From NCBI GenBank assembly GCA_023249375.1, contig JAHFCT010000023.1, positions 1 to 53,164 of the forward strand: a stretch of 53,164 nt of DNA, in the 5' to 3' direction. The translations under genes and the position numbers were made by a program. The notes under the pieces are model-generated. The model saw only the letters and a program-made list of their open reading frames with translations. It was not told the DNA's origin and did no database searches. This DNA is from Gemmatimonadota bacterium. GTDB lineage: Bacteria > Gemmatimonadota > Gemmatimonadetes > Gemmatimonadales > Gemmatimonadaceae. Of this stretch, positions 3,311 through 27,776 are shown piece after piece (positions within the stretch are counted from its first letter, which is position 1; every line of letters begins with the position of its first letter).

Positions 3311-3967
3311 GTGCAGATCCTGATTGCGGACAAGCATGCGCTCGTGCGGAGCGCCCTGCGGACGCTGGTTGAAGAGCATGGCCACCGCGTCGTGGCTGAG
3401 GTTGCGTCGGGGCCCGAGGCGGTCGAGATGACGCGCCGTAGCGAACCAGATGTCGCGCTGCTCGACCTCGAAGGCTCGCCGTTCGAGATGATGGCGGCGG
3501 GCAAGCGGATTTCGTCGGCGTTCCCGCATACTGCCGTCGTCGTGCTCGCCGGTCCCGGCGAACACGACTTGTTCCTCGAGGCCGTGTCGAGCGGCGCGCG
3601 CGGCTTCGTCACGCGCGACATGGACGAGCACATCTTCTGCACGCTGCTGGAACGCGCGGCGGCCGGCGAGATTGTGGTCGCGCCGGAACTCGCCACCAAG
3701 CTGCTCGAGGTCTACACGCACGCGTCGGCGGACGGTCAACACGTGCGTCGCGCGATGACGCTGACGCCGCGTGAGCACGAAGTGCTGTCGCACATGACGC
3801 GCGGGCAAACGTCCAACCGCGCACTGGCGGCGGCACTGGACCTGAGCGAGAACACGGTTCGCTTTCACGTGCGGAACATCCTTGAGAAGTTCCACGTGCA
3901 CAGCCGGGCAGCGGTGGTGGCCTACGCGTGCTCGCACGATGCCGTCGCGTTGGAGGGCGCCGAGTAG
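3311..3967 (+). CDS. NarL/LuxR-family response regulator with an altered receiver pocket
   Basis: The 218-aa protein has an N-terminal receiver (about 1-120) and a C-terminal LuxR helix-turn-helix (about 150-210; LTPREHEVLSHM and SENTVRFHVRNILEKFHVHSR). The receiver keeps the phosphate-accepting Asp52 (ALLDLEG). It differs elsewhere: the second acidic residue is Lys8 (ADKHALVR instead of ADDHALVR), the Thr/Ser switch position is Ala80, and the conserved Lys is Arg102 (VTRD instead of LLKD). Such changes are seen in receivers with weak or no phosphorylation. No histidine kinase is nearby. The start is GTG 3311. It is encoded just upstream of the hydrogenase operon on the same strand and is the obvious candidate regulator of it. 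Confidence 0.85.
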   Translation: MQILIADKHALVRSALRTLVEEHGHRVVAEVASGPEAVEMTRRSEPDVALLDLEGSPFEMMAAGKRISSAFPHTAVVVLAGPGEHDLFLEAVSSGARGFVTRDMDEHIFCTLLERAAAGEIVVAPELATKLLEVYTHASADGQHVRRAMTLTPREHEVLSHMTRGQTSNRALAAALDLSENTVRFHVRNILEKFHVHSRAAVVAYACSHDAVALEGAE

Positions 3968-4167: not shown

Positions 4168-6111
4168 ATGATCTCCCGAGAACGCTCGGGTTTTCAGAAT
4201 AGCTTGACCGTGTGCCCCTTCTGCTCCTGCGGGTGTGGTCTCCACCTGCAGGGAGACAGCGATGGCCTCGTTGGGGTGGTACCCAGCGAGGCCAGTCCTG
4301 TGTCAGAGGGGCGCCTGTGTGAGCGCGGCTGGGCCGCGCATGACGCCGCGCGCTGGGGCGCCCGCTTTCACGAGCCGCACATCCGTGAGCACGGCGTGCT
4401 CCGCCCGGCGTCCTGGGACGAGGCACTCGGCGTGGCGGCCAAGTCACTGCGCAGCCTGCGTGACCGCGGCCGGCCGGTGGGTGTGCTCGGCTCCGGTCGC
4501 GCGTCCAACGAGGAGAACTTCCTGGCGGTGGCACTCGCCCGCGTGGCGCTGCACACCGGCAATGTCGATGCCGGACTGCGCCGCTGTTATGAGGACCTGC
4601 TCGCGGCGTTGGAACAGCCCGCCGCCGCGGCAGACCGCGAGGATGGGATCCGCCGGCTTGAGCGCTCGGACGTCATCGTGCTGATTGAGGGCGACCTCAC
4701 GACGTCGCATCCGCGCGTCGCGATGGGCGTGCTGCGCGCGCTGCGTCGAGGCGGCCGGTTGATCACCGCCGGATGGAGCCGGACGCAGATGAGCCGGCTG
4801 GCGACCGTGCACCTGCCGTTAAGTGCGGCGATGCCAGTGAGCACGCTGGCCGCGTTGCAGCAGGCGTTTACCGAGTTGGCTGCGCGCGGTGATGCGGTGA
4901 GTGCCGGCGGCGGCGGCGCGAGCGCGGTGGAGCGCGCGGCATCGATCGTCGCCGAGTCACGGCGCGTGGCGTTTGTCCTGACGCCGTTCGATGCGGATTC
5001 CGTGGTGCTTCGCACCGCGGCTTCGCTCATCGCGGCGCTGGCCGACGATGTCGCCGCGGCCGGAGGGACGCCGCCGCTCGTACTGCCGCTCCCTGTCCGC
5101 GCCAATACGTGCGGCGCGTTCGATATGGGGGTGGCGCCGCACCTGCTCCCCGGGCGGCGTTCACTGGAAGATCATGACGCCCGCGACCGACTGCGCGCCG
5201 TGTGGGGCACCGAGCCGTGCTGGAGTGGCGGACTGAGCGCCGAGGAGATGATCGACAGCGTGTCGGGGCTCGTGGTGCTGGCGGATGACGTCACGGAGTT
5301 TCATCGCCGGCCCGATCGTGCAGTGGCGGCGCTGCAATCGCTCGACACGCTTGTCGTGTTCGACAGCTTCGTGACGCCGACGACGAAGGCGGCGCACGTG
5401 GTGCTGCCGATCGCGGCGTTCGGAGAGACGGCGGGAACGATCACGAGTCTCGAGGGGCGCGTGCAGCGGTGGCGGAGCGCCGCCGATGCGCCGCACTCGA
5501 TTCGGCCGGGTTGGCGGGCACTCCGCGACTTGCTCGATGCGCTGGGCGCCACGTACGCGCCGCAATCACTCGACGTGCTGCTGCGAGACATCTGGACGGC
5601 GGTGCCGTCCTACGGCGCGATTGCGCCGGCCGCGCTCGACGCCGCGGGCGGCGCGGTGCTTGAGGATTCAGGCGCACCGCGCCGCGCGACCCCCGTCGCT
5701 GATGCGATGCGCCGGACCGCCTCGCGCCGCGTCGGCGCCGCGCCGGCGGAAGCACCGTCGGATGCGACGGCGGATGCGATGCGCTGGCTGCTGCGCGGCG
5801 AGGGCGTGTTCGACTGGGGCGACGACCCGCTGGTGACGTCGTCGCCGATCCTCCGGCGTACACCGGCGTCGGAGCGGAAGCTGCGCCCGACCGGTGTGGT
5901 GATGATGAGCACGGATGACGCGGAACGACTGGGTGTCCGCGACGGATGGACGATTCGCGTTCGCTCGAGGAGCGGTGAAGCTCACGTGGCGGTGTCTCTG
6001 CGGGCAGGACAGGAGCGGGGCGTGCTGTTTGTCCCGTTCGCATATCGGGATCGCCTGAGCGCGCTGTCGGGCGACGGTGGTGCGGTGGAGGTGGAAGTCA
6101 GTCGCGCCTGA
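4168..6111 (+). CDS. Formate dehydrogenase-like molybdopterin oxidoreductase subunit
   Basis: The 647-aa protein follows the FdhF plan. An N-terminal [4Fe-4S] site has Cys16, Cys19, Cys23 and Cys51 (CPFCSCGCG and GRLCERG). A cofactor domain carries NVDAGLRRC with Cys140 where E. coli FdhF has Sec140. A later segment has RANTCGAFDMG (compare NNVQGACDMG), then VLPIAAFGETAGT and EGRVQRW, and a C-terminal molydopterin-binding domain. The residue after Cys140 is Tyr141 where active formate dehydrogenases have His, and the lysine next to the FeS site is Arg53, so catalysis on formate is uncertain. Start ATG 4168 has AGGGA upstream. It is the first gene of the hydrogenase operon; in the family it would feed electrons from formate. 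Confidence 0.8.
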   Translation: MISRERSGFQNSLTVCPFCSCGCGLHLQGDSDGLVGVVPSEASPVSEGRLCERGWAAHDAARWGARFHEPHIREHGVLRPASWDEALGVAAKSLRSLRDRGRPVGVLGSGRASNEENFLAVALARVALHTGNVDAGLRRCYEDLLAALEQPAAAADREDGIRRLERSDVIVLIEGDLTTSHPRVAMGVLRALRRGGRLITAGWSRTQMSRLATVHLPLSAAMPVSTLAALQQAFTELAARGDAVSAGGGGASAVERAASIVAESRRVAFVLTPFDADSVVLRTAASLIAALADDVAAAGGTPPLVLPLPVRANTCGAFDMGVAPHLLPGRRSLEDHDARDRLRAVWGTEPCWSGGLSAEEMIDSVSGLVVLADDVTEFHRRPDRAVAALQSLDTLVVFDSFVTPTTKAAHVVLPIAAFGETAGTITSLEGRVQRWRSAADAPHSIRPGWRALRDLLDALGATYAPQSLDVLLRDIWTAVPSYGAIAPAALDAAGGAVLEDSGAPRRATPVADAMRRTASRRVGAAPAEAPSDATADAMRWLLRGEGVFDWGDDPLVTSSPILRRTPASERKLRPTGVVMMSTDDAERLGVRDGWTIRVRSRSGEAHVAVSLRAGQERGVLFVPFAYRDRLSALSGDGGAVEVEVSRA

Positions 6112-6136
6112 AGGCCTCAACTGGAGGAACGGAACC

Positions 6137-7207
6137 GTGGAGAGGAGCGCCACCCGCGTCATCGCCAGAAGCGACGTGAACGAGTGGCTGGCGCATATCC
6201 TCCACCATCGTGACGTTATCGCGCCGACGCGGTCACCGGGTGGAGACACGATGTTTGCTCCCATCACGTCGCCCGATGACGTGCTGTGGGACTTCGAGAA
6301 TCCGCTGGCGCCACCGAAGCAGTTCCTGCTCCCACAGACGGAGCCGCTGGCGCACTTCCGTCGCATCGACGGCCACATGCACGTGGAACCGGTGGCCGAG
6401 CAGCGGGAGCGCGTGCTCTTCAACGTGCGCAGCTGCGATGCCTCGGCGCTCGCCTTTCTGCGTGAGACCTATGCACGCGACCTCGCCGATGACGTGGTGG
6501 AGCGACGCGCGGCATCGCTGACGGTCGTGACGCTGGCGTGCAGCGTGCCCTGCGAGCTGGGGTTCTGCGTCTGCACCGACGCGGGGCCGTTCTTGCGGCG
6601 TGACTTCGACGTGCAGCTCACCGATCTCGGCGACGCGTTCTTCGTGGAGGTGGGCACAGACAAGGGGCGCGCGCTCGTCGGCCTCGCGGACGCTCTGTTC
6701 CAGGATGCGGCCTCCGACGATCAGGCGCGACGCGATGCGTCGGAGCTTGCGGCGCGCGCGCATTTTGGCGGCGAGACGTGCCACTTTGGTTCCGCCATGC
6801 GGCGCATCTCGACGAAACGGGTGGCGGACGAGTTGTGGGAGTCGATGAGCGCGTGGTGCCTGGACTGTGGCGGCTGCACGCACGTGTGCCCCACCTGCTA
6901 CTGCTTCAGCGTCTCGGACACGCCGCCGGCCGACGGCTGCTCCACGCGATGCCGCCTGTGGGATTCGTGCCAGTACTCGGCGTTCACCCTCGAGGCGACG
7001 GGACACAATCCGCGCACGGCACACGGCGAGCGCATGAAGCGCCGATTCCATCACAAGGCGAGCGCGCAGTACTTCCAACGGGACGGGCGCGTCGGCTGCG
7101 TGGGATGCGGACGCTGCGTGAAGGTGTGCATGGGCACCACCGACATGCCGACGGTGATCGCGGCCATTCGCCACGGCACGTGGGACGGCGGGCGCGCTCA
7201 TGCCTAA
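6137..7207 (+). CDS. hydB: HydB-like iron-sulfur subunit (4Fe-4S dicluster)
   Basis: The 356-aa protein matches the beta subunit of sulfhydrogenase and AsrA-type proteins. A variable N-terminal region leads to a cysteine-rich half: WCLDCGGCTHVCPTCYCF, CRLWDSCQY, RFHHKASAQYF and CVGCGRCVKVCM. These are two [4Fe-4S] sites plus the family's R-x-W-D-S-C signature. HydB passes electrons between the flavin subunit HydG and a catalytic partner. Start GTG 6137 follows GGAGG at the right spacing; an in-frame start at 6077 would overlap the upstream gene. The stop overlaps the next start by eight bases, so translation is coupled to the HydG-like gene. Confidence 0.88.
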   Translation: MERSATRVIARSDVNEWLAHILHHRDVIAPTRSPGGDTMFAPITSPDDVLWDFENPLAPPKQFLLPQTEPLAHFRRIDGHMHVEPVAEQRERVLFNVRSCDASALAFLRETYARDLADDVVERRAASLTVVTLACSVPCELGFCVCTDAGPFLRRDFDVQLTDLGDAFFVEVGTDKGRALVGLADALFQDAASDDQARRDASELAARAHFGGETCHFGSAMRRISTKRVADELWESMSAWCLDCGGCTHVCPTCYCFSVSDTPPADGCSTRCRLWDSCQYSAFTLEATGHNPRTAHGERMKRRFHHKASAQYFQRDGRVGCVGCGRCVKVCMGTTDMPTVIAAIRHGTWDGGRAHA

Positions 7208-8021
7208 TCTCCTGCTGCCGAGCGTGGCGACGATTCTCACGCAGCGCGACGAGACGCCTGACGTCCGCACGTACGCTCTTCGCTTCCGCGATCCTGACGA
7301 ACGGGCGGGCTTCGCGTTCACGCCAGGGCAGTTTCTGGAACTCTCGGTCTTTGGATTCGGCGAGGCGCCGTTCTGCCTGGCGTCGAGTCCGACGCGCGGC
7401 CCCGATGTGGAAGTCACGGTGCGGCGGTGCGGCCGGTTAACCGACGCGCTGCACACGCTCGGGCCCGGTGATGAAGTGGGCCTGCGGGGGCCGTGCGGCA
7501 ACGGATTTGACGTGGACGCGGCGCGGGGCAAGGACCTCGTTTTCGTCGCCGGCGGCATTGGGCTGCCGCCGCTTCGCAGCCTGATATGGAACGTGTTCGA
7601 CCGCCGCCGCGAGTTTGGCCGTGTGACCATTCTGTACGGTGCGCGCACGCCGTCCGACCTCGTGTACAAGGACGAACTCCGCGATTGGGAGCGGCAGGCT
7701 GATGTCACGGTGCGCGTGACGGTGGACCGCACCGGGCCGGGCTGGGACGGAACGGTCGGGATGGTGCCGGTGCTGTTCGACCACGTCGAACTGAATGCGG
7801 CGACGAGCCTGGCGTATGTCTGCGGTCCGCCGATCATGATCAAGTTCGTCGTGCAAGACCTGCTCAAGCGCGGGTTCGCGGCGGAGCACGTGATCTCCAC
7901 GCTGGAGCGGATGATGCAGTGCGGCGTGGGCAAGTGCAATCACTGCTGCGTGGGGCATCGATACCTGTGCCGCGACGGGCCGGTGTTCAACGTGCGCGAG
8001 ATCACGGAGATGTGGGAGTGA
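7200..8021 (+). CDS. hydG: HydG-like FAD/NAD(P)-binding oxidoreductase subunit
   Basis: The 273-aa protein has a ferredoxin-NADP reductase fold: an FAD domain (FTPGQFLELSVFGFG, PFCLASSP), a nucleotide domain (VFVAGGIGLPPLRSL, VCGPPIMIKF), and a C-terminal [2Fe-2S] site with four cysteines (QCGVGKCNHCCVGHRYLC then DGPVF). This is the layout of the gamma subunit of sulfhydrogenase and of AsrB. It would exchange electrons with NAD(H) or NADP(H) and hand them to the HydB-like protein encoded before it. Its presence in a group 4 hydrogenase operon suggests NAD(P)H as a second electron donor or acceptor. The next gene starts within its stop codon. Confidence 0.9.
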   Translation: MPNLLLPSVATILTQRDETPDVRTYALRFRDPDERAGFAFTPGQFLELSVFGFGEAPFCLASSPTRGPDVEVTVRRCGRLTDALHTLGPGDEVGLRGPCGNGFDVDAARGKDLVFVAGGIGLPPLRSLIWNVFDRRREFGRVTILYGARTPSDLVYKDELRDWERQADVTVRVTVDRTGPGWDGTVGMVPVLFDHVELNAATSLAYVCGPPIMIKFVVQDLLKRGFAAEHVISTLERMMQCGVGKCNHCCVGHRYLCRDGPVFNVREITEMWE

Positions 8022-8500
8022 ACCTCGCCTCGCGTCTTCGCGGCCGCGTCACCGTGGTCGGCATCGGCAATCCGCTGCGCGGAGACGACGGCGTGGGCTG
8101 CCGTATCGTGGAAGCGCTGGCGAACGATTGCTGCAGCGGCGCGCTTCGTCGCGAGGCGGGCCTGACGGTGGTCAACGCCGAAGACGTGCCGGAGAACTAT
8201 CTCGGTCCAGTTGTCGACTCGCGGCCGGATGTCGTGCTGCTGGTGGACGCGGTGGACCTTGGAACGTCGCCGGGCGCGTCGGTGATTCTCGAGTCGGCGG
8301 CGCTGAGCGGTGAATCGCCGTACACGCATCGCACGTCACTGCGGGTGACGGCGTCGCTGTTGGAGCGCATGACGGGCGCCGAGGTGCTGCTGCTCGCGGT
8401 GCAGCCGGGCACGCTCGAGTGGGGGTTCCCGCTGAGCGATGCGGTGGCGACCTCAGCGGACAGCCTGACGGACTTGCTGCGGGAGGCACTCGCATGCTGA
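8018..8500 (+). CDS. hycI: Hydrogenase maturation protease, HycI type
   Basis: The 160-aa protein opens with VTVVGIGNPLRGDDGVG, the M52 peptidase signature with the nickel-sensing Asp, and includes DVVLLVDAVDLG, the second Asp site. These endopeptidases check that nickel is inserted in the hydrogenase large subunit and then cut off its C-terminal tail. The large subunit encoded later in this operon has such a tail: 38 residues after Arg530. The start is GTG 8018, sharing bases with the upstream TGA; a longer in-frame ORF from 7919 would overlap the HydG-like gene by over 100 bases. Confidence 0.92.
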   Translation: MNLASRLRGRVTVVGIGNPLRGDDGVGCRIVEALANDCCSGALRREAGLTVVNAEDVPENYLGPVVDSRPDVVLLVDAVDLGTSPGASVILESAALSGESPYTHRTSLRVTASLLERMTGAEVLLLAVQPGTLEWGFPLSDAVATSADSLTDLLREALAC

Positions 8501-9960
8501 CGCTGGCGCTCGCGCTGGTACTGGTGATTCCGGTGGCCGGCGCCGTGATGGCGGGCGTGGCGCGCGTGGGTGAAGCCCGCGGTGTGGCGTTGCGCGCGGC
8601 ACTTGTCACCGCGCTCCTCGCCATTGGCGTGTCGTGGGTGGCGTATCCGGCGGGCTATCGCGTGATGCTCGCGGGATTGCCGTGGCTGGAGCACGGATCG
8701 AGCGCCGGCCTATTTGGGCTGCTGCTCGATCCGCTCGCCACCATCCTGCTGCTGGTGGCGACGGTGATCGGATTTCTCACCGTGCTGTATTCGGGTGGAT
8801 ACCTGCAGAAGGAGAATCAGGAGCACAGCGTCGGTGCCGAGCATCATGGCCGGTTCTATTTCTGGCTGCTCGCGTTTCTGGCGAGCATGGTCGGCGTGGC
8901 GACCGCGCCAAACTTCCTGCAGCTGTTCGTCTTCTGGGAGCTGACGACGGTCTGCTCGTGGTCGCTGATCTCGTTCTACCGCAGCCCGTCGAGCCTGCGC
9001 GCCGGATTCAAGGCAATCCTGATGACGCACGCCGGCGGCCTGTTCTTCATGGCCGCGCTGCTCGTGATGTTCGTGAAGACGGGATCCTTCGACTTTGATG
9101 CGCCGGCGCGGCTCGATGGCAACGTGCGCGGCGCGGTGTACGCGTTCCTGATGATTGCGGCGTGGGGCAAGGCCGCGCAGGTGCCGTTGAACACGTGGCT
9201 TCCCGACGCGATGGAGGCGCCGACGCCCATCAGCGCGTACCTGCACGCGGCGGCGATGGTGAAGGCCGGCGTGTACCTGATGGCGCGCGCGGTGAGCAGC
9301 GGCTGGGCAATGCCGGAGGGCGTCGGCCTCGTGATGGCCATCATGGCGCTGGTCACCATCCTGATTGCGCTCTCGTTCTACTTCGTGCAGGACGACCTCA
9401 AACGGCTTCTCGCGTACTCGACGATCGCGCATCTGGGCTATGTGCTGCTTGGCGTCGCCATTGGCGCGCTCGGCTCGCCAATCGCCTTGCAGGGCGGTGC
9501 ACTGCACATCATCTGCCACGCGTTCGGCAAGGCGACGCTGTTCCTGTGCGTCGGCGCGGTCGCATGGAAGACGGGTTCGCGCAGTATCGCGGGGCTGCGC
9601 GGCATCGCGCGCATCATGCCGCTCACGGCGACGGCGTATTTCGTGGGGGTGCTGGCGGTCACGGGCATCCCCCCGTTTGCCTGCTTCTGGAGCAAGTTCA
9701 TGATCCTCGCCGGCGCCATGCAACTCGCGTCGCCGCTCGGTCCCGTGATCATGGCGGTGGTGCTCATCGAGAGCCTGGTGGCGTTCGGCTGGATGCTCCG
9801 GGTGGGACAGAAGGTCTTCCTCGGGCCGTGGACGCCGCCCGCGGATCGGCCCCTCCATCCGCTGCCTGTCTCGATGCAGATCGCGCTGGTGGCTCTGATC
9901 GCCGGGTGCCTGGTGGCGCCGGTCGTGGGCATCCCCCTCGTTCATCGGATTGTCCCATGA
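8494..9960 (+). CDS. Antiporter-like membrane subunit, NuoL/HyfD type (proton channel 1)
   Basis: The 488-aa, very hydrophobic protein has about 14 membrane helices and the proton_antipo_M pattern. It carries FVFWELTTVCSW (conserved Glu of TM5), GKAAQVPLNTWLPDAMEAPTP with the pumping Lys, and HAAAMVKAGVYLMAR. The helix end VQDDLKRLLAYST is typical of the family. In complex I and Hyf hydrogenases such subunits carry protons across the membrane when electrons flow. Start ATG 8494 overlaps the protease stop by seven bases. It is the first of three antiporter-like subunits in this operon. Confidence 0.92.
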   Translation: MLTLALALVLVIPVAGAVMAGVARVGEARGVALRAALVTALLAIGVSWVAYPAGYRVMLAGLPWLEHGSSAGLFGLLLDPLATILLLVATVIGFLTVLYSGGYLQKENQEHSVGAEHHGRFYFWLLAFLASMVGVATAPNFLQLFVFWELTTVCSWSLISFYRSPSSLRAGFKAILMTHAGGLFFMAALLVMFVKTGSFDFDAPARLDGNVRGAVYAFLMIAAWGKAAQVPLNTWLPDAMEAPTPISAYLHAAAMVKAGVYLMARAVSSGWAMPEGVGLVMAIMALVTILIALSFYFVQDDLKRLLAYSTIAHLGYVLLGVAIGALGSPIALQGGALHIICHAFGKATLFLCVGAVAWKTGSRSIAGLRGIARIMPLTATAYFVGVLAVTGIPPFACFWSKFMILAGAMQLASPLGPVIMAVVLIESLVAFGWMLRVGQKVFLGPWTPPADRPLHPLPVSMQIALVALIAGCLVAPVVGIPLVHRIVP

Positions 9961-11981
9961 TCACGTTTCGCCTTCTTGAAGTGGCGGCGGCGTTTCTCGT
10001 GCTTGGCGCGGCCACCGCGTTCTTCACGCGGCGCCGGCGAAAGGTCTGCGGTTGGGTGAGTGTGGCGGCGATGGGTGGTGCGGCAGTGTTGATGATCGCC
10101 GTGGCGGTGCGCGCCTTCGCCGGCGCGGCGGACGCCGAAGTCTCGGTGTTGCCCATCGCGAGCCTGAGGTCGGCGCTGAGCGTGCGCGTCGATGCGCTGA
10201 GCGCGCTGTTCCTCTGCGTGTCGGGGCCGGTGGCGTGGATGACCACTCTGTACTCGGTGGAGTACATGTCGCGGTACACCAAGGACAGCGTCGCCAAGTA
10301 CTTCCCGGTGCTGCTGCTCCTGTTCTTCTCGATTGCGGGAACCGTCGTGACGACGGACCTCTTCTGGTTCCTCGTCTTCTGGGAAGTGATGACGCTCACG
10401 TCGTTCTTCCTCGTGATCTACGAACGGGAGAATCGCGAGTCGCATCGCGCGGGACTGAAGTACTTCATCTGGAATCAGGGGGCGGCGCTCGGCATGGTGG
10501 CGGCGGCGCTGGTGCTGTGGCGTCACGCCGGCTCGTTTGGATTTGCTGCAATTCGTGACGCGCTCGGCGCGCTGCAGGTGAGCAATCCGCTCCTCGCGCA
10601 CACGGTGCTGTTCCTCTTCTTCGCCGGCTTTGCCACCAAAGCGGGGCTGCTGCCGTTCTGGAACTGGCTGCCCGACGCCTACGCGGCCGCGCCGAGCAGC
10701 GCGACGGCGGCGTTTGGCGGCACGATGTCGAAGCTCGGCGTCTACGGGCTGTTGCGCGTGTTCCTGCATCTGCTGCCGCTTGGCTCGTTCACCACGTCGT
10801 GGGGCGTGGTCATCGCGTGCGTGGGCCTGGCGAGTCTCTTCATCGGCACGCTAGCTGCACTGCAGCAGGACGACACGAAGCGGCTGATGTCGTATCACGC
10901 CATCGGGCAAGTGGGGTACATGTTCCTCGGCATCGGCGCGGGACTCGCGCTGCTGCGCACCAATCCGCTGCTCGGCACGATGGGACTCGTCGCGGGCCTG
11001 TTTCACATGGTGAACAACTGCTTCTACAAATCGTGCCTCTTTCTGGGGGCAGGGGCAGTGGAGTTCCGGACGGGCGGGCGCAGCCTCGCGGCGATGTCGG
11101 GCGGACTGGGCGGCGTGATGTCGGCGACGATGGCGTGCTCGCTGATTGCGTCACTCGCGATTGCGGGCGTGCCGCCGCTGAACGGATTCGCCAGCAAGTG
11201 GCTGATGTATGTCACCGGGATTCTCGGCGGCGAGGTGTCGTTCCTGCTTCCGGTGGCCGCACTGGTGGCGATGTTCATCTCGCTCGTGACGCTGGCGTCG
11301 TTCCTGAAGTATCTCGGCGGGGCGTTCCTCGGCGCGGCCACCGAGGTCAAGGGCATTCGCGAAGTGCCCATGACGATGCTCGCCCCGCAGGTGGTGCTCG
11401 CGACACTGTGCATCGCGGCGGGGCTGCTGCCGATTGTTCCGCTGCGACTCGTCCATCAGGCCGTGGTCGGCCTTCCCTCCGCGGCGGGGCTGCCGGCGTT
11501 GAGTGCACTCGTCGGGCCGGGCCCGAACCTCGCCCTCGTGAAGGACGGCGTCGTACTCGCGACGTGGGCACCCATGCCCGTGGCCCTCGTGCTGTTGGTG
11601 CTCGGTGCGGCCGCGTTCTTCGGACTGCAGCGTGCGGGCGGTGCTGCCACGCGCACGGTGCCGGTGTGGGCGGGCGGCGAGGAAGAAGAGCCGGCGCTGA
11701 TGAGATATCGCGCCGACAGCTTGTATCGGCCGTTCAAGGATGCGTTCCACGGCATGTATCCCCACGTGCCGCCGCTGCAGCTTTCCGTTCCGGTCTTCGT
11801 GCGACGCACGCTGGATCTCGACCGCTGGCTCTTTCGGCCGATTGCACGAGGCACCGCCGACGCGGCGCGCGGCGTGAGCCGCACGCATGTCGGCATTCCA
11901 CAGGTCTATCTGCTCTGGATCATCGTCGGCGCCGTCGCGGTGATCATGACGATTCTGCTGGTGTCCGGAGGCGCTCCATGA
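9957..11981 (+). CDS. hyfB: Antiporter-like membrane subunit, HyfB/HycC type (proton channel 2)
   Basis: The 674-aa protein is the longest membrane subunit. It shows FWEVMTLTSFFLV (conserved Glu), GFATKAGLLPFWNWLPDAY, SKLGVYGLLRVF and QQDDTKRLMSYHAIGQ. After the antiporter core it has a long C-terminal extension with a soluble segment (VPVWAGGEEEEPALMRYR) and a final helix, as in HyfB and HycC, where the tail anchors the subunit along the membrane arm. ATGA overlap joins it to the gene before (start 9957, stop 9960) and to the gene after. Confidence 0.92.
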   Translation: MITFRLLEVAAAFLVLGAATAFFTRRRRKVCGWVSVAAMGGAAVLMIAVAVRAFAGAADAEVSVLPIASLRSALSVRVDALSALFLCVSGPVAWMTTLYSVEYMSRYTKDSVAKYFPVLLLLFFSIAGTVVTTDLFWFLVFWEVMTLTSFFLVIYERENRESHRAGLKYFIWNQGAALGMVAAALVLWRHAGSFGFAAIRDALGALQVSNPLLAHTVLFLFFAGFATKAGLLPFWNWLPDAYAAAPSSATAAFGGTMSKLGVYGLLRVFLHLLPLGSFTTSWGVVIACVGLASLFIGTLAALQQDDTKRLMSYHAIGQVGYMFLGIGAGLALLRTNPLLGTMGLVAGLFHMVNNCFYKSCLFLGAGAVEFRTGGRSLAAMSGGLGGVMSATMACSLIASLAIAGVPPLNGFASKWLMYVTGILGGEVSFLLPVAALVAMFISLVTLASFLKYLGGAFLGAATEVKGIREVPMTMLAPQVVLATLCIAAGLLPIVPLRLVHQAVVGLPSAAGLPALSALVGPGPNLALVKDGVVLATWAPMPVALVLLVLGAAAFFGLQRAGGAATRTVPVWAGGEEEEPALMRYRADSLYRPFKDAFHGMYPHVPPLQLSVPVFVRRTLDLDRWLFRPIARGTADAARGVSRTHVGIPQVYLLWIIVGAVAVIMTILLVSGGAP

Positions 11982-13684
11982 TCGCCACAGCGGCCGCCGA
12001 AACGGCCACCCTGCTGCGTAGCCGGCTCGGCGCCGGCGTGCTCGGTGCGCGCGAGATGGATCCCGATCTCCTGTGGGCGTCGGTGGACCGCTCTTGCGTG
12101 CGCGAAGCGACGACGGTGATGAAGGAGATCGGGAGCCGCTATCTCGTCACGGTCGGCATTGACGAGCGGCCGCTGGGCGGCGGCTACGGCATCGTGCACC
12201 TGTTCTCGCTGGACGCGGAGCATCTGTTCATCGCGGTGGACTGTCCGGTGTCGGCGGGCGATCCGCGCATTGATTCCATCACGCCGCTGATTCCCGGCGC
12301 GTCGTGGGCCGAGCGGGAGTTCCGCGACATGATCGGCGTGGAGCCCGAAGGACATCCCGATCCGAAGCGCCTGGTGTTGCCGGACGACTGGCCCGAGGGC
12401 GTGCACCCGCTGCGCCGCGACGTGGCGTACAACTATCGTCCGCCCTCCGTGGAGGGATTTGCGCCTGAGCTCGTGAAGCCGCCGCGGGGAAGCAGCGTGC
12501 TGCCCGTCGGGCCGTTCTTCCCGGTCTTGGAAGAGCCGGCGCGGTTCCGGCTCTTCGTCGAAGGGGAGACGGTCGTGGGGTGCGACTATCGCGGCTTCTA
12601 CAACCACCGCGGCATCGAGAAGCTCGGCGACAGCGTGCTGACGTGGGATCGCATCCCATTTCTCGCGGAGCGCATCTGCGGCATCTGCGGATTCATTCAC
12701 TCGACGTGCTACTGCCAGGCGGTGGAGAAGGCGGCGGACATCGAGGTGCCGCGCCGTGCGGCGTACATCCGCACGGTGATGCTGGAACTCGAGCGCATTC
12801 ACTCGCACTTGCTGTGGCTAGGCATTGCCGGCCACATCCTGGGCTTCGATACGGTGCTGATGCAGACGTGGCGCATCCGCGAACCGGTGATGTGGCTCAC
12901 GGAGGAGATCAGCGGCAACCGGAAAACCTACGGCATGAATCTGGTGGGCGGCGTGCGCCGCGACATCACCGACGCGCAGCTGCCGCGCATTCTCGACGTG
13001 CTGAAGACGGTGGAGAAGGAGGCGCTCGCGGTGCGCAAGGCGATTGCGGACGACAGCACGCTCCACGCGCGCACGGTGGGCGTGGGGCCGCTGAGCACCT
13101 GGTGGGCAAAGGAAATCTGCGCGGTGGGCCCGCCGGCCCGCGCCTCGAACGTGCTGATTGACGCACGGATTGATCATCCGTACGCGGCCTACGATGACTT
13201 GAAGCCGAGGTTGTGTTCGTCGGACGGCTGCGACGTGTGGGCGCGCGTCATCGTGCGCCTTGACGAACTCGAGGACAGCATCCGGCTGGTGCGCGAGGCG
13301 CTGGCGAATCTCCCGGCGGGCGCCGTGCGCGCCGAGTTCGACGAAATTCCCGGTGGTCGCGTAGGCGTGTCGGCGGTCGAAGCGCCGCGCGGGGAGGCCA
13401 TCCACTTCGTGATGACGGGCGGCGAGAACCGGCCATATCGGTGGCGCGTGCGCGCGCCGACGTTCCCGAATCTTCAGGCCGTGCCGGCGATGATCCGAGG
13501 GCAGAGCATCGCCGACGTGCCGATCAGCATCGGCAGCCTTGACCCGTGCTTCTCGTGCACGGAGCGCATGGAGACGGTCAGCGTCGCGGATGGCAGTCGG
13601 CGCATCTACACGCTGCAGGAACTGCAGGCCTTGGCGCAGTCAGCGCGCGCGCGCCGTGGCAACGGCGACGGAGGAGCACCATGA
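11978..13684 (+). CDS. hyfG: Group 4 [NiFe]-hydrogenase large subunit with NuoC-like N-terminus
   Basis: The 568-aa protein is a NuoC/NuoD fusion like HycE and HyfG. Residues about 1-150 are NuoC-like (EREFRDMIGVEPEGHPD); the rest is the catalytic large subunit. The nickel-binding motifs are intact: Cys234 and Cys237 in RICGICGFIH (L1) and Cys524 and Cys527 in DPCFSCTER (L2). Complex I NuoD lacks these cysteines, so this is a hydrogenase. The Arg at the end of L2 (instead of His) is typical of group 4. The 38 residues after Arg530 fit a tail removed by a HycI-type protease, which is encoded in the operon. It would interconvert protons and H2 at the cytoplasmic side of the membrane. Confidence 0.95.
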   Translation: MIATAAAETATLLRSRLGAGVLGAREMDPDLLWASVDRSCVREATTVMKEIGSRYLVTVGIDERPLGGGYGIVHLFSLDAEHLFIAVDCPVSAGDPRIDSITPLIPGASWAEREFRDMIGVEPEGHPDPKRLVLPDDWPEGVHPLRRDVAYNYRPPSVEGFAPELVKPPRGSSVLPVGPFFPVLEEPARFRLFVEGETVVGCDYRGFYNHRGIEKLGDSVLTWDRIPFLAERICGICGFIHSTCYCQAVEKAADIEVPRRAAYIRTVMLELERIHSHLLWLGIAGHILGFDTVLMQTWRIREPVMWLTEEISGNRKTYGMNLVGGVRRDITDAQLPRILDVLKTVEKEALAVRKAIADDSTLHARTVGVGPLSTWWAKEICAVGPPARASNVLIDARIDHPYAAYDDLKPRLCSSDGCDVWARVIVRLDELEDSIRLVREALANLPAGAVRAEFDEIPGGRVGVSAVEAPRGEAIHFVMTGGENRPYRWRVRAPTFPNLQAVPAMIRGQSIADVPISIGSLDPCFSCTERMETVSVADGSRRIYTLQELQALAQSARARRGNGDGGAP

Positions 13685-14598
13685 ACGCCGCATACCTGCG
13701 CACCGCCGCCATCGCGGTGCTCGATGTGGCGCTGCTGCTCGTGCTCTCGCCGCTATTCGAGGGCGTGCTGCGCAAGCTGAAAGCGGCGCTTCACTCGCGC
13801 ATCGGCCCGCCGGTCGTGCAGCCGTTCGTGGACACCCTCAAGCTGCTCGGCAAGGACGACCTTCTCACGGTGCACAGCCGAGCGTACGCCGTGACTCCGG
13901 CGCTGGCGCTGGCGTCGGTGCTCGTGCTCGGAACGATGGTGCCGATCGGCGGCGTCCCACCACTCGGATTTGCCGGTGATGTCGTCGGGATCATCTACGT
14001 GGCGGGCGTTGGCGCGGTGCTGCTGATCCTGACCGCGTTTGCGAGCGGCAGTCCATACGCGGCGGTCGGCGGATCGCGCGAGATGATGGCGCTGCTCTCG
14101 GTGGAGCCGGTCGTCGCGGTGACGCTCGTCGTCGGCGCGATGAAGGCCGGCACGCTGTCGGCGGGCGGCATCTCGGCGTGGAATGCGTCGCACGGTCCGA
14201 CCATCAGCATGACCTTGGCTGGGCTGGCGCTCTTTCTCGCCGTGCAGGCACAGGCCGGCAAGCTGCCGTTCGACATTCCGGAAGCGGATCAGGAGATCAT
14301 GGGAGGCCCGCTGGTGGAGCAGAGCGGGCCACGGCTCGCGCTCTTCCGCTGGGCGATGTGGGTGCGGCAACTCGTTTTCACACTCTTGCTTGTGGAACTG
14401 TTCTTCCCGTGGCCGCGGAGCGGGGTCTTCCTGCTCGACCTGGTGTCGGCATTGGCCAAGGCGATGCTCGTGCTGGTGCTTGTCGCGGTGGTGGATGTGG
14501 TCAACCCGCGCCTGAAGGTGGAGCAGGCGATGGGCTACTACCTGCGCGTCGCGTTCTCATCGCTGGCGGCGCTGGCCTTCGCCGTCGTCGGCATGTAG
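13681..14598 (+). CDS. hyfC: NuoH/HyfC-like membrane anchor subunit
   Basis: The 305-aa protein has about eight membrane helices. HSRIGPPVVQPFVDTLKLL is the NuoH/HycD signature near the N-terminus, and KLPFDIPEADQEIMGG is the acidic loop that links the hydrogenase module to the membrane arm. In Hyf and formate hydrogenlyase complexes this subunit holds the catalytic module and couples redox change to ion movement. It starts with an ATGA overlap with the large-subunit gene. Confidence 0.94.
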   Translation: MNAAYLRTAAIAVLDVALLLVLSPLFEGVLRKLKAALHSRIGPPVVQPFVDTLKLLGKDDLLTVHSRAYAVTPALALASVLVLGTMVPIGGVPPLGFAGDVVGIIYVAGVGAVLLILTAFASGSPYAAVGGSREMMALLSVEPVVAVTLVVGAMKAGTLSAGGISAWNASHGPTISMTLAGLALFLAVQAQAGKLPFDIPEADQEIMGGPLVEQSGPRLALFRWAMWVRQLVFTLLLVELFFPWPRSGVFLLDLVSALAKAMLVLVLVAVVDVVNPRLKVEQAMGYYLRVAFSSLAALAFAVVGM

Positions 14599-14608
14599 GA
14601 GGTGCACC

Positions 14609-15148
14609 GTGCTCCTCAGTAAACTGCGCGAGGCCTTGATCTGCGTCCAAGCGGGACGCGTGACGCTGCCGTATCCCTATGCGCCGCACGATCCGCCGCC
14701 CGGATTCCGCGGAAAGCTCGCCCTCGATGCCGATCGCTGCATCGGATGCGGCGGATGCGCGGCGGTGTGCCCGTCGGGCGTGATTCTCATCCGTGATGAC
14801 AAGCCGATGGTGCGCACGCTGCACTTCGCCCTGGCACGTTGCACGTACTGCGGGCGCTGCTCCGATGTGTGTCCCGAAGGCGCGCTGTCGCACACGCTGC
14901 AGTTCGAGACGGCGACCAACACCATCGACGACCTGGTGATGACGATCGACGTGTTCATGGGACCGTGCCAGCGCTGCGGCCGCTGCTTTCCGCCGCCCAC
15001 GGCGATGGATCAACTGCCGATTCGGGGCTTCAGGATGGACAGCGAGTGCTGCCGCGTCGGGGCCGACATGCCTGCCCCCGATGCGGCGGCGACGTGGGCC
15101 GCGGCGCACTCCGCACCGCCCGGTGGCGTGAGGACACTCACCCCGTGA
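14609..15148 (+). CDS. hyfH: NuoI/HyfH-like ferredoxin subunit with an extra cysteine cluster
   Basis: The 179-aa protein has two classic [4Fe-4S] motifs: Cys44-47-50-54 (CIGCGGCAAVCP) and Cys78-81-84-88 (CTYCGRCSDVCP). It links the electron-input proteins to the small subunit. A third group of cysteines follows: CQRCGRC at 120-126 and a CC pair near residue 145, which standard NuoI-type proteins do not need. Start GTG 14609 is preceded by AGGAGG at a good spacing. The end overlaps the next gene by four bases (GTGA). Confidence 0.92.
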   Translation: MLLSKLREALICVQAGRVTLPYPYAPHDPPPGFRGKLALDADRCIGCGGCAAVCPSGVILIRDDKPMVRTLHFALARCTYCGRCSDVCPEGALSHTLQFETATNTIDDLVMTIDVFMGPCQRCGRCFPPPTAMDQLPIRGFRMDSECCRVGADMPAPDAAATWAAAHSAPPGGVRTLTP

Positions 15149-15819
15149 TCTCCGACCTGCTTCCCGTTCCGCTCATTCGCACACTGAGCCTCACGCTGGT
15201 CATCACGTCGGTGCTGGTCGTCGAGTCGCGGCGGCTGCGCGTGGCGGCCGCCGCGTACCTGCTGCAGGCGCTGCTCATCGTGGCGCTGCTCGCCGCGTTT
15301 GCCTCGATGAATCACGCGCTGTACTGGTGGGCGGCCACCGCGCTGGTCACCAAGGCCGTGCTTATCCCGTGGTTCCTGCTGCGCTACATCCGGCGCACGG
15401 GCGGCGTGGAGGTGAAGCCGCTCGTCGGTTTCGCGCCGTCCGTGCTGGTGGCCGCGATCCTGATGGTTGCGTTTTTCCGGCTCACGCACGGACAGGCGGG
15501 GTTGCTGGTGCCGAGCGCGCTCGCGAAAGAGGAAGTCCTGCGGACGAACCTCGCGGTGGCATCCACCGTTTTCGTGCTGGGGTTGTGGGCGCTGCTCACG
15601 CGGCGCGACGCGGTGAAGGCGGTGATCGGATTGTGCCTGCTCGAGAATGGCGTGCACCTCGGTCTCGTCAGCTTCGCCCCGGGACTTCCAGAGACCGCGC
15701 TGTTCGGCGTCGCCTCCGAAGTGGTGGTCACCGTCTTCCTGCTCCTCTACGTGATTGAGGGACTGTTCAAGGAGTTCGGCACCACCGACACGTTCCAGCT
15801 GAGGACGCTGCGATGGTAA
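15145..15819 (+). CDS. hyfE: HyfE-like membrane subunit
   Basis: The 224-aa protein has about seven membrane helices and the HyfE layout, in which the C-terminal half (about 130-205; AVIGLCLLENGVHLGLVSF) resembles NuoK/MnhC. The LLENG motif supplies the conserved Glu of that fold. HyfE is present in Hyf-type but not in the smaller Hyc complexes, so it supports a Hyf-type assignment. Start GTG 15145 lies in the stop of the previous gene; the end overlaps the next start by seven bases. Confidence 0.85.
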   Translation: MISDLLPVPLIRTLSLTLVITSVLVVESRRLRVAAAAYLLQALLIVALLAAFASMNHALYWWAATALVTKAVLIPWFLLRYIRRTGGVEVKPLVGFAPSVLVAAILMVAFFRLTHGQAGLLVPSALAKEEVLRTNLAVASTVFVLGLWALLTRRDAVKAVIGLCLLENGVHLGLVSFAPGLPETALFGVASEVVVTVFLLLYVIEGLFKEFGTTDTFQLRTLRW

Positions 15820-17324
15820 CGACGTCTTCGCTTCCCGTCGCCGCGTTCCTCGTGCCGCTGCTCGCCGGCGTCCTCCTGCTCGTATCGGGAGGCGGCCGGC
15901 GACGGTTCTGTGAATGGGTGGCGCTCGCCGCGTCCGCGTTTCTCGCCGTGGCGGGGGTGTGGGTCGCGATTCAAGTGGCGGCGGGGAGCATCCTCGTGGC
16001 GTGGGGCGAGGAACTGCGCGTCGATGCGCTCTCCGCCCTGATGATGCTCGTCGTCGGCGTGCTGGGCTTCCTCGCGATCGTGTACGCCGTGCGCTACAGC
16101 GAACACGGGCGCATGATGGACGCGCCCGGCATGGGCGGCCCCGAGCGCCGGCCGGCGGTCTTCTACGCTTTGGTGCTGCTCTTCCTGGGCACGATGACGT
16201 GGGCCGTGGTGACGAACAACGTCGTGATGCTCTACGTCGCGGTGGAAGCAACGACGCTGAGCTCCGGATTGCTCGTCGCCTTCTTCTGGGACAAGCGCGC
16301 GCTCGAGGCGGGCTACAAGTATCTGATCCTGCTCACGGTGGGCATCACGTTCGCGTTGCTCGGATGCGTCGTCGTCTATGCCGCCGGCGCGGCGACGGGC
16401 GCGATCACCGGCGTCGACACGCTGCTGCTCAGCCACATCCGCGACGTGGCGCACCTGATCCCGCGCCCGACGGCGCTGATGGCGGTGGCGCTGCTCGTCG
16501 TCGGATTCGGCACGAAGGCCGGCCTGGTGCCGTTCCACGTCTGGCTGCCGGACGCGCACGCCGAGGCGCCAGCGCCCGTCAGCGTACTGCTCTCGGGGAT
16601 CATGATCAAGGTCGCGCTGTACGCGATGGCGCGGACCATCAGCATGTTCTTTCCGGCCGTTCCGCAGCTCACGATCTTCGCTGTCGCTCTGGGATGTCTG
16701 ACGATGCTCGTCGGCGTTGTGCTCGCGCTGGCTCAGGACGACCTCAAACGGCTGCTTGCGTATTCGTCAGTCAGCCAGATGGGATACGTGCTCGCGGGCA
16801 TTGCCCTGGGCACGTATCTGGGCGCGTACGGCGGGCTGTTCCATCTGCTGAATCACGCGCTGTTCAAGGCGCTGCTGTTCATGGCGGCTGGCGCGCTCGT
16901 GTTCGCCACCGGGGCGCGCCGCGTGAGCGAACTCGGCGGACTAGCGCGGCGGATGCCCGTGACCGCGGCGTGCTTCCTTGTCGGCGCACTTTCGATTGCG
17001 GGGTTCCCGCCGTTCAACGGTTTCTGGAGCAAGTTCACGATCTACGTAGCGCTCGCACGCTCGGGGTTGTGGTGGGCGGTGGGGGTGGCGGTCTTCACCA
17101 GTCTGCTCACGATGGTGGCGCTGGTCCGGCCGGTGATTCGAGTGTTCTGGGCGGCACCGACGGGCGACGCGCACCGTCTGGACGGCGTGCAGGAGGTGCC
17201 AGCCGCGCTGTGGGTGCCGATGGTCGTGCTCGCCGCGCTGTGCCTGCTCCTCGGCGTGGTGCCGTCCGCGGCGTACGCACTGCTCCACCGCGCGGCGACG
17301 GTACTCGCCGTGCTCGGCGGGTAG
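15813..17324 (+). CDS. hyfF: Antiporter-like membrane subunit, HyfF type (proton channel 3)
   Basis: The 503-aa protein has about 14 helices. It carries VAVEATTLSSGLLVAFF (conserved Glu), GFGTKAGLVPFHVWLPDAHAEAP and SGIMIKVALYAMAR with the channel lysines, and LAQDDLKRLLAYSSVSQMGY. This sequence type matches HyfF. With the two other antiporter-like subunits it gives three possible ion channels. An RBS-like GGGG precedes the next gene after an 8-base gap. Confidence 0.92.
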   Translation: MVTTSSLPVAAFLVPLLAGVLLLVSGGGRRRFCEWVALAASAFLAVAGVWVAIQVAAGSILVAWGEELRVDALSALMMLVVGVLGFLAIVYAVRYSEHGRMMDAPGMGGPERRPAVFYALVLLFLGTMTWAVVTNNVVMLYVAVEATTLSSGLLVAFFWDKRALEAGYKYLILLTVGITFALLGCVVVYAAGAATGAITGVDTLLLSHIRDVAHLIPRPTALMAVALLVVGFGTKAGLVPFHVWLPDAHAEAPAPVSVLLSGIMIKVALYAMARTISMFFPAVPQLTIFAVALGCLTMLVGVVLALAQDDLKRLLAYSSVSQMGYVLAGIALGTYLGAYGGLFHLLNHALFKALLFMAAGALVFATGARRVSELGGLARRMPVTAACFLVGALSIAGFPPFNGFWSKFTIYVALARSGLWWAVGVAVFTSLLTMVALVRPVIRVFWAAPTGDAHRLDGVQEVPAALWVPMVVLAALCLLLGVVPSAAYALLHRAATVLAVLGG

Positions 17325-17332
17325 GGGGGCGC

Positions 17333-17833
17333 ATGTTCAAGGAGCTCTGCCGCAAGGCGTTTACTCGGTCGCTGTGGGTCTACCACGCGAATGCCGGCGC
17401 GTGCAACGGGTGCGACATCGAAGTCATCGACGTGCTCACGCCCTACTATGACGCGGAGCGGTTTGGCATTCGGCTGGTGGGGTCGCCGCGGCACGCCGAC
17501 GTGATTCTGCTCAGCGGGCCGGTCACGCGACAGGCGGCGCCAGCGCTGAAACGGCTGCTGGATGCCGTTCCTGATCCCAAGCTGGTCGTCGCGGTGGGAT
17601 CGTGCGCCGCGGGCGGCGGAAGCTGGTTCGACACCTACGCGACGACCGGTGGTGCGAACGAGACCATTCACGTCGATTACTTCATTCCCGGGTGCCCGCC
17701 GCGCCCCGAGGCGATTCTCTATGCGCTCGCCGTGGCGATGGGGCTCGTGCCCAAGAAAGCGGCTCCGGAGCATTGGCAACAGGAGACGCTGGAGGAGCTT
17801 GCGGCGGGCATCACGCATCTGAAACGAGCATGA
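17333..17833 (+). CDS. hyfI: [NiFe]-hydrogenase small subunit, NuoB/HyfI type
   Basis: The 166-aa protein has the four cysteines of the proximal [4Fe-4S] cluster: Cys24 and Cys27 (GACNGCDIEV), Cys91 (GSCAAGGG) and Cys121 (PGCPPRPE). It takes electrons from the HyfH-like ferredoxin and passes them to the NiFe site. It is the last gene of the operon; a repeat and a strong terminator follow. No hyp maturation genes other than the protease are seen in the window. Confidence 0.95.
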   Translation: MFKELCRKAFTRSLWVYHANAGACNGCDIEVIDVLTPYYDAERFGIRLVGSPRHADVILLSGPVTRQAAPALKRLLDAVPDPKLVVAVGSCAAGGGSWFDTYATTGGANETIHVDYFIPGCPPRPEAILYALAVAMGLVPKKAAPEHWQQETLEELAAGITHLKRA

Positions 17834-27662: not shown

Positions 27663-27776
27663 GCCTCACGTCGGAATTGAAGCCGTCCATGGCGGGCAGC
27701 CCTCGGGAATTCTAATCGATTGCCACAAACACCTCCGGTCTCGCCCTTGCACGGGCGCCGTCGCATCTTGAGAGAC

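Follow-up and report, generated by a model that had tools for sequence, protein, structure and literature searches.

A Hyf-type [NiFe] hydrogenase operon with a HydBG module and a putative pseudo-formate dehydrogenase in Gemmatimonadota, and predicted selenocysteine nickel ligands among its relatives

Gene content and distribution of the operon

We analyzed a stretch of 53,164 nucleotides of contig JAHFCT010000023.1 (assembly GCA_023249375.1) from a Gemmatimonadota bacterium, hereafter the window, which carries a complete Hyf-type group 4 [NiFe] hydrogenase operon at positions 4168–17833. Twelve open reading frames (ORFs), all on the plus strand, are packed within this region (Table 1). Their coordinates and family matches confirm the tightly packed, co-directional hydrogenase genes described in a first-pass annotation, including an FdhF-like protein and a HydB/HydG pair in the same operon. 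As discussed below, the operon probably encodes an NAD(P)H-coupled hydrogenase in which the FdhF-like subunit is likely no longer a formate dehydrogenase. All conclusions are based on sequences that are mutually related, and errors in metagenome-assembled genomes (MAGs) are possible.

Table 1. Genes of the hydrogenase operon in the window.
Product	Coordinates	Strand	Basis
FdhF-like putative pseudo-formate dehydrogenase, 647 aa	4168..6111	+	Pfam/NCBIfam, E. coli FdhF alignment, structure model
HydB-like, sulfhydrogenase beta homolog, multi-[4Fe-4S] electron-transfer subunit	6077..7207 (start uncertain)	+	families, PDB 9nez_B
HydG-like, sulfhydrogenase gamma homolog, FAD/NAD(P)-binding reductase with [2Fe-2S] cysteines	7200..8021	+	families, PDB 9nez_C
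HycI-type hydrogenase maturation protease	8018..8500	+	families, E. coli Hyf comparison
HyfD, antiporter-like membrane subunit	8497..9960	+	NF005097 over cut-off
HyfB, antiporter-like membrane subunit	9957..11981	+	families, E. coli Hyf comparison
HyfG/HycE-type [NiFe] hydrogenase large subunit; Ni ligands C234, C237, C524, C527	11978..13684	+	families, alignment
HyfC, NuoH-like membrane subunit	13681..14598	+	families, E. coli Hyf comparison
HyfH, NuoI-like ferredoxin subunit	14609..15148	+	families, E. coli Hyf comparison
HyfE membrane subunit	15145..15819	+	families, E. coli Hyf comparison
HyfF, antiporter-like membrane subunit	15813..17324	+	identified against E. coli Hyf
HyfI, HycG/NuoB-like small subunit with proximal-cluster cysteines	17333..17833	+	identified against E. 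coli Hyf

Pfam and NCBIfam gave matches to molybdopterin oxidoreductase, the sulfhydrogenase beta and gamma subunits, the HycI protease, and HyfD (over cut-off), and likeness to HyfB, NuoD/HycE, NuoH, HyfH, and HyfE; comparison with E. coli Hyf identified HyfF and HyfI. Adjacent ORFs generally overlap by 4–8 bp. Exceptions are FdhF/HydB, which overlap by 35 bp with a GTG start of HydB at 6077 (the starts of both genes are uncertain), and HyfC/HyfH, which are separated by a 10-bp gap. Neither HyfA/HycB nor HyfJ/HycH was found in the operon. Just upstream, on the same strand, a NarL/MadR-like response regulator (3311–3967) is a possible regulator. About 10 kb downstream lies a second molybdopterin oxidoreductase of 733 aa (27720–29921), for which Fdh-alpha, NasC, and PhsA all score below their cut-offs.

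The first-pass annotation had proposed looking for the same 12-gene order in other genomes. A scan of GTDB contigs identified 56 relatives from Gemmatimonadota, Acidobacteriota, Armatimonadota, KSB1, Calditrichota, Aminicenantes, MAGs labelled Deltaproteobacteria, and others. Most complete loci among these relatives and further genomes contain the same twelve genes, usually in the same order and sometimes rearranged. Because the set recurs in this way, the grouping of the genes is not due to chance. Within the host phylum, the locus is rare (7 of 395 genomes at E ≤ 1e-100); it is commoner in the phylum of locus L054 (Armatimonadota, judged by the kin of that locus). The window contig (G000:C57) is from the same genus as JACPFW010000010.1. 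In L060 (15683–16609) and L080 (9007–9909), both of them distant relatives, a gene for a phosphonate-type periplasmic binding protein is next to those of the hydrogenase.

Hydrogenase core and membrane arm

HyfG is a large subunit of the fused 30-kDa/49-kDa type, in which the alignment bears out the four nickel cysteines noted previously, C234/C237 in the L1 motif and C524/C527 in the L2 motif. It also has a C-terminal tail, which is a likely substrate of the HycI-type protease. The small subunit HyfI has the four conserved cysteines expected from the first-pass annotation (C24, C27, C91, and C121), and the cluster cysteines of both HyfH and HyfI are retained. Among PDB entries, HyfG matches HycE best (435 bits; Mbh, 278 bits), and it shares 41% and 39% identity with HycE and HyfG of E. 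coli, respectively. Since it is nearer to HycE than to Mbh among the solved structures, the sequence comparison makes "group 4a-like" a fair label for the large subunit, in line with the Hyf-type group 4 assignment made before. In a tree whose sole references are from E. coli, all members group together in a single branch, at a clear distance from HycE and HyfG of that species.

The three antiporter-like subunits share the channel Glu and Lys residues with E. coli Hyf (HyfD E148/K225/K400, HyfB E143/K228/K259, and HyfF E145/K235), as is characteristic of a complex I-like machine. In line with the earlier suggestion of a proton- or sodium-pumping enzyme, ion pumping by the membrane arm is likely from what is generally known about complex I-like machines. 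The host also encodes a group 1-type [NiFe] hydrogenase with a cytochrome b and, on the same contig, hypD, and therefore maturation machinery is present.

HydBG module and FdhF-like subunit

HydB and HydG are homologous to the beta and gamma subunits of Pyrococcus sulfhydrogenase I (PDB 9nez). Across about 40 loci, there is essentially no variation in the Fe-S cysteines of HydB or in the HydG residues for FAD, NAD(P), and [2Fe-2S]. Together with the conserved operon, these cofactor motifs support the proposal that HydBG serves as an NAD(P)H module. HydBG occurs without a HycB-type ferredoxin in 65 loci, and a HycB-type ferredoxin alone in five records (four distinct). Counted per contig, two contigs have both, although the ferredoxins of L038 and L079 may lie outside the operon. 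In the loci of formate hydrogenlyase (FHL) type, FdhF-HycB occupies the position held elsewhere by the HydBG module, and we infer that HydBG replaces the HycB/HyfA ferredoxin of classical FHL.

The best family of the FdhF-like subunit is Fdh-alpha, but with 257 bits against a cut-off of 666, and its identity to E. coli FdhF is 24%. A Cys-His-Arg triad has been stated as the signature of formate dehydrogenase (FDH) (PMC8965080). We scored two sets of loci against U140-H141-R333 of E. coli FdhF, read as U/C-H-R. The corresponding residues are C-Y-P (C140-Y141-P) in the window and G-Y-P in the same-genus ortholog. The full triad was found in none of the 59 HydBG-linked FdhF-like proteins (the duplicate locus L148/L083 entered once), and the input of formate or a formate-like substrate, as earlier proposed, is not borne out. 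A dozen residue types occur at the ligand position (140), which differs even between same-genus orthologs, although certain clades share triad residues of their own (Y-D-R, I-C-L). Cys140 of the window was considered as proof of activity and rejected, as this Cys is missing in L035. In contrast, C-H-R is intact in all three HycB-linked proteins, none of which is accompanied by HydBG (L054, the same locus as L157; L055; and L146). Genome G115 encodes both types, namely L157, which is FHL-type with an intact FdhF, and L147, which is HydBG-type with the triad V-D-N. This genome additionally carries a third large subunit of group 4, which is more distantly related. In L054 (3943–4967), ferredoxin-thioredoxin-reductase-like and redoxin genes lie between the intact FdhF and the HycB-like ferredoxin.

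Despite the loss of the triad, the [4Fe-4S] cysteines are kept in 38 of 38 FdhF-like proteins of the first set, the fourth in 37 of 38, and all four are present in every full-length protein of the second set. The position of E. coli FdhF Lys44 is always Lys or Arg, and S109 and E115 of the pterin region are invariant. An AlphaFold2 model (mean predicted local distance difference test score of 85.8) has the molybdopterin-oxidoreductase fold, and Foldseek matched it best with E. coli FdhF, with NuoG of complex I also among the matches. The HydBG-linked FdhF-like proteins have diverged faster than HyfG in nearly all pairs, with FdhF/HyfG identities of 55/84% (window–L035), 51/77%, and 48/76%, compared with 92/92%, 75/78%, and 76/79% for pairs with the intact triad; one exception is L057–L062 (93/93%). 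The divergence of HydG tracks that of HyfG. Because the triad is lost and evolution is fast, yet the fold and the cluster are kept, the sequences and the model give the FdhF-like subunit the profile of a pseudo-enzyme. It is better read as a relay or scaffold resembling NuoG.

Predicted selenocysteine at the nickel site of relatives

Among the relatives, 16 carry TGA in frame at precisely the codons for the L1 nickel cysteines in HyfG (L049, L050, L053, L057, L058, L062, L065, L069–L071, L073, L074, L078, L081, L084, and L087); the window does not. The TGA is at the second L1 cysteine in ten loci (CxxU), at both in five (UxxU), and at the first in one (UxxC). The second L1 ligand bridges Ni and Fe. 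The loci with the double state fall into two distinct regions of the tree. Wherever L2 is covered, its residues are Cys, including at the known L2 position of selenocysteine (Sec). Downstream of the second L1 position, a perfect stem of 6–8 bp resembling a Sec insertion sequence (SECIS) was found in 16 of 16 TGA loci and in 0 of 40 Cys loci, each of the 16 stems being better than synonymous shuffles at p < 0.05. In L065, the bases on both sides of the stem differ, but the stem itself is preserved. Sec and Cys loci could not be told apart by minimum free energy alone; the stem test with synonymous shuffles distinguished them.

SelB over its cut-off, selB fragments, or a clear tRNA-Sec were detected in 14 of the 16 genomes, with no clear match for L050 and L084. 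Because several genomes with the Cys version, including that of the window (tRNA-Sec), also carry Sec machinery, its presence is a necessary condition and no proof. As in a [NiFeSe] hydrogenase, UGA at a nickel ligand goes with a SECIS-like element and, in most of the genomes, with Sec machinery; this holds for these 16 relatives only. An altered genetic code for TGA was considered and rejected, as there is no comparable in-frame TGA inside the other operon genes of these loci; the few stops there are near alignment ends or are TAG. We predict from these sequences that UGA at L1 is read as Sec, giving natural [NiFeSe] enzymes. According to a 2026 review, Sec hydrogenases are only of the Frh/Vhu type (UxxC), and [NiFeSe] enzymes are confined to sulfate reducers and methanogens (PMC13188914). 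In E. coli Hyd-1 and Hyd-2, Sec has been engineered into the place of each of the four nickel ligands (PMC11212049). We found no description of natural Sec at L1 in the open-licence literature.

Proposed mechanism and alternative explanations

The operon product is probably a membrane-bound NAD(P)H:proton oxidoreductase that resembles complex I and includes a pseudo-FDH as relay or scaffold. NAD(P)H is the likely electron source because the FdhF-like subunit has lost its catalytic residues. Co-assembly, the electron path, pumping, the direction, and the cofactor preference are what we infer in the following scheme. HydG would exchange electrons with NAD(P)H through its FAD and [2Fe-2S] center and pass them to and from two carriers of [4Fe-4S] clusters, HydB with several and the pseudo-FdhF with a single one, the latter retained as a relay or scaffold like NuoG in complex I. 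Electrons would then move reversibly via HyfH and HyfI to the [NiFe] site of HyfG, where H+ and H2 would be interconverted, and HyfB, HyfC, HyfD, HyfE, and HyfF would couple electron transfer to the movement of H+ or Na+. The standard potentials are about −320 mV for NADH and −414 mV for H2 at 1 bar. As the potentials come near balance at low H2, both H2 evolution as a fermentative sink and H2 uptake reducing NAD(P)+ with energy conservation are conceivable. The first-pass annotation had joined formate-like and NAD(P)H inputs; the HydBG motifs support the NAD(P)H half, whereas the loss of the triad argues against the formate half.

The FdhF-like subunit could instead still oxidize formate, making the complex an FHL to which HydBG adds an NAD(P)H branch. 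The best family match, the retained FDH fold, the Cys at the Mo-ligand position of the window, the Cys-His kept in L060, and the existence of an NADP-linked FDH with intact Cys-His-Arg in Thermococcus (PMC8965080) are in accord with this possibility. However, the window lacks the His and the Arg, its same-genus ortholog lacks even the Cys, and no HydBG-linked protein is intact. Moreover, the subunit evolves fast, and a bona fide FDH is encoded elsewhere in the genome (G000:C45), scoring over the Fdh-alpha cut-off with an intact triad (motifs LCHSS and RGQNN), so that formate oxidation by the host is independent of the operon. Such an FHL is quite unlikely. Turnover of another Mo/W substrate by the subunit, feeding the hydrogenase, would explain why the fold and the pterin-region residues persist and why some clades share triad residues, but it is hard to reconcile with a ligand position differing even between same-genus orthologs in the fastest-evolving subunit, and we regard it as improbable.

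HydBG functions in the soluble sulfhydrogenase I, and co-transcription is no proof of co-assembly; FdhF-like–HydBG might accordingly form a separate soluble oxidoreductase, such as an NAD(P)H:acceptor enzyme, merely sharing the operon. We give this little credence, since the linkage is the same in many phyla, the HydBG loci lack the HycB/HyfA link required by FHL, and FdhF-HycB fills the same place in FHL-type loci.

Several points weigh against the NAD(P)H:proton oxidoreductase with a pseudo-FDH. All relatives found are MAGs. The intact HycB-linked cases form one clade, therefore representing few independent events and providing a consistent contrast only. The Cys at the Mo-ligand position and parts of the pterin-binding region remain in the window protein, and the HydBG-linked FdhF of L060 (3379–5421) keeps Cys-His, with Ile for Arg. 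Module exchange instead of decay in place is possible, and certain lineages may have other Mo/W chemistry or residual FDH activity. The gene order in L060 is HydG-FdhF-HydB, a possible intermediate.

Significance and comparison with known systems

On balance, we lean towards the view that these NAD(P)H-coupled hydrogenases, built like complex I and wired through a pseudo-FDH, form a class that is widespread and undescribed. Some of its lineages would have Sec at one or both L1 positions, mostly at the second, and this [NiFeSe] chemistry has to date been known from engineered enzymes and not from nature. If so, they would connect NAD(P)H with H2 in nature by way of an ion-pumping complex, which bears on module exchange between complex I and hydrogenases, and the Sec relatives would be natural tests of sulfur versus selenium as nickel ligands. 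The co-occurrence of fdhF and hyf in metagenomes would then be no evidence of formate metabolism.

We found no description of an NAD(P)H/pseudo-FDH hydrogenase combination in the open-licence literature. The locus of Acidobacteria SbA1 (L039), with I-C-L at the triad positions, was annotated as formate hydrogenlyase, "fdhF, hyf operon" (PMC6018796). The hyf genes annotated in comammox Nitrospira are also of group 4, but both CxxC nickel motifs are reportedly missing there (PMC7305129), whereas the window has both. Fdh3 of Thermococcus onnurineus, an NADP-dependent FDH, likewise joins a subunit of FDH fold to an Fe-S subunit and one that binds NAD(P), but it is soluble, with an intact Cys133-His134-Arg324, an NfnI-like NAD(P) subunit, and no hydrogenase (PMC8965080).

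The E. coli FHL complexes (Hyc/FHL-1 and Hyf/FHL-2, group 4a) share homologous HyfB, HyfC, HyfD, HyfE, HyfF, HyfG, HyfH, HyfI, HycI, and an FdhF homolog with the window, which differs in having HydBG, no HycB/HyfA or HycH/HyfJ, and an FdhF-like protein without the triad. Because two defining features of FHL are absent, an active FdhF and the bridging HycB/HyfA ferredoxin, the window complex should not be classed as an FHL. Pyrococcus sulfhydrogenase I (group 3b, HydBGDA, PDB 9nez) shares HydB and HydG with their cofactor motifs; however, it is soluble, with different large and small subunits, and has neither a membrane arm nor an FdhF-like subunit. The HydA/HydD catalytic pair of that group is replaced in the window by Hyf-type catalytic subunits. 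The resemblance to complex I extends over the NuoB/C/D/H/I/L/M/N-like core and the pairing of an NAD(P)H flavoprotein with a degenerate subunit of molybdopterin fold, although the window has a [NiFe] site in place of quinone, and its flavoprotein is of the HydG type (FNR/PyrK family) rather than NuoF.

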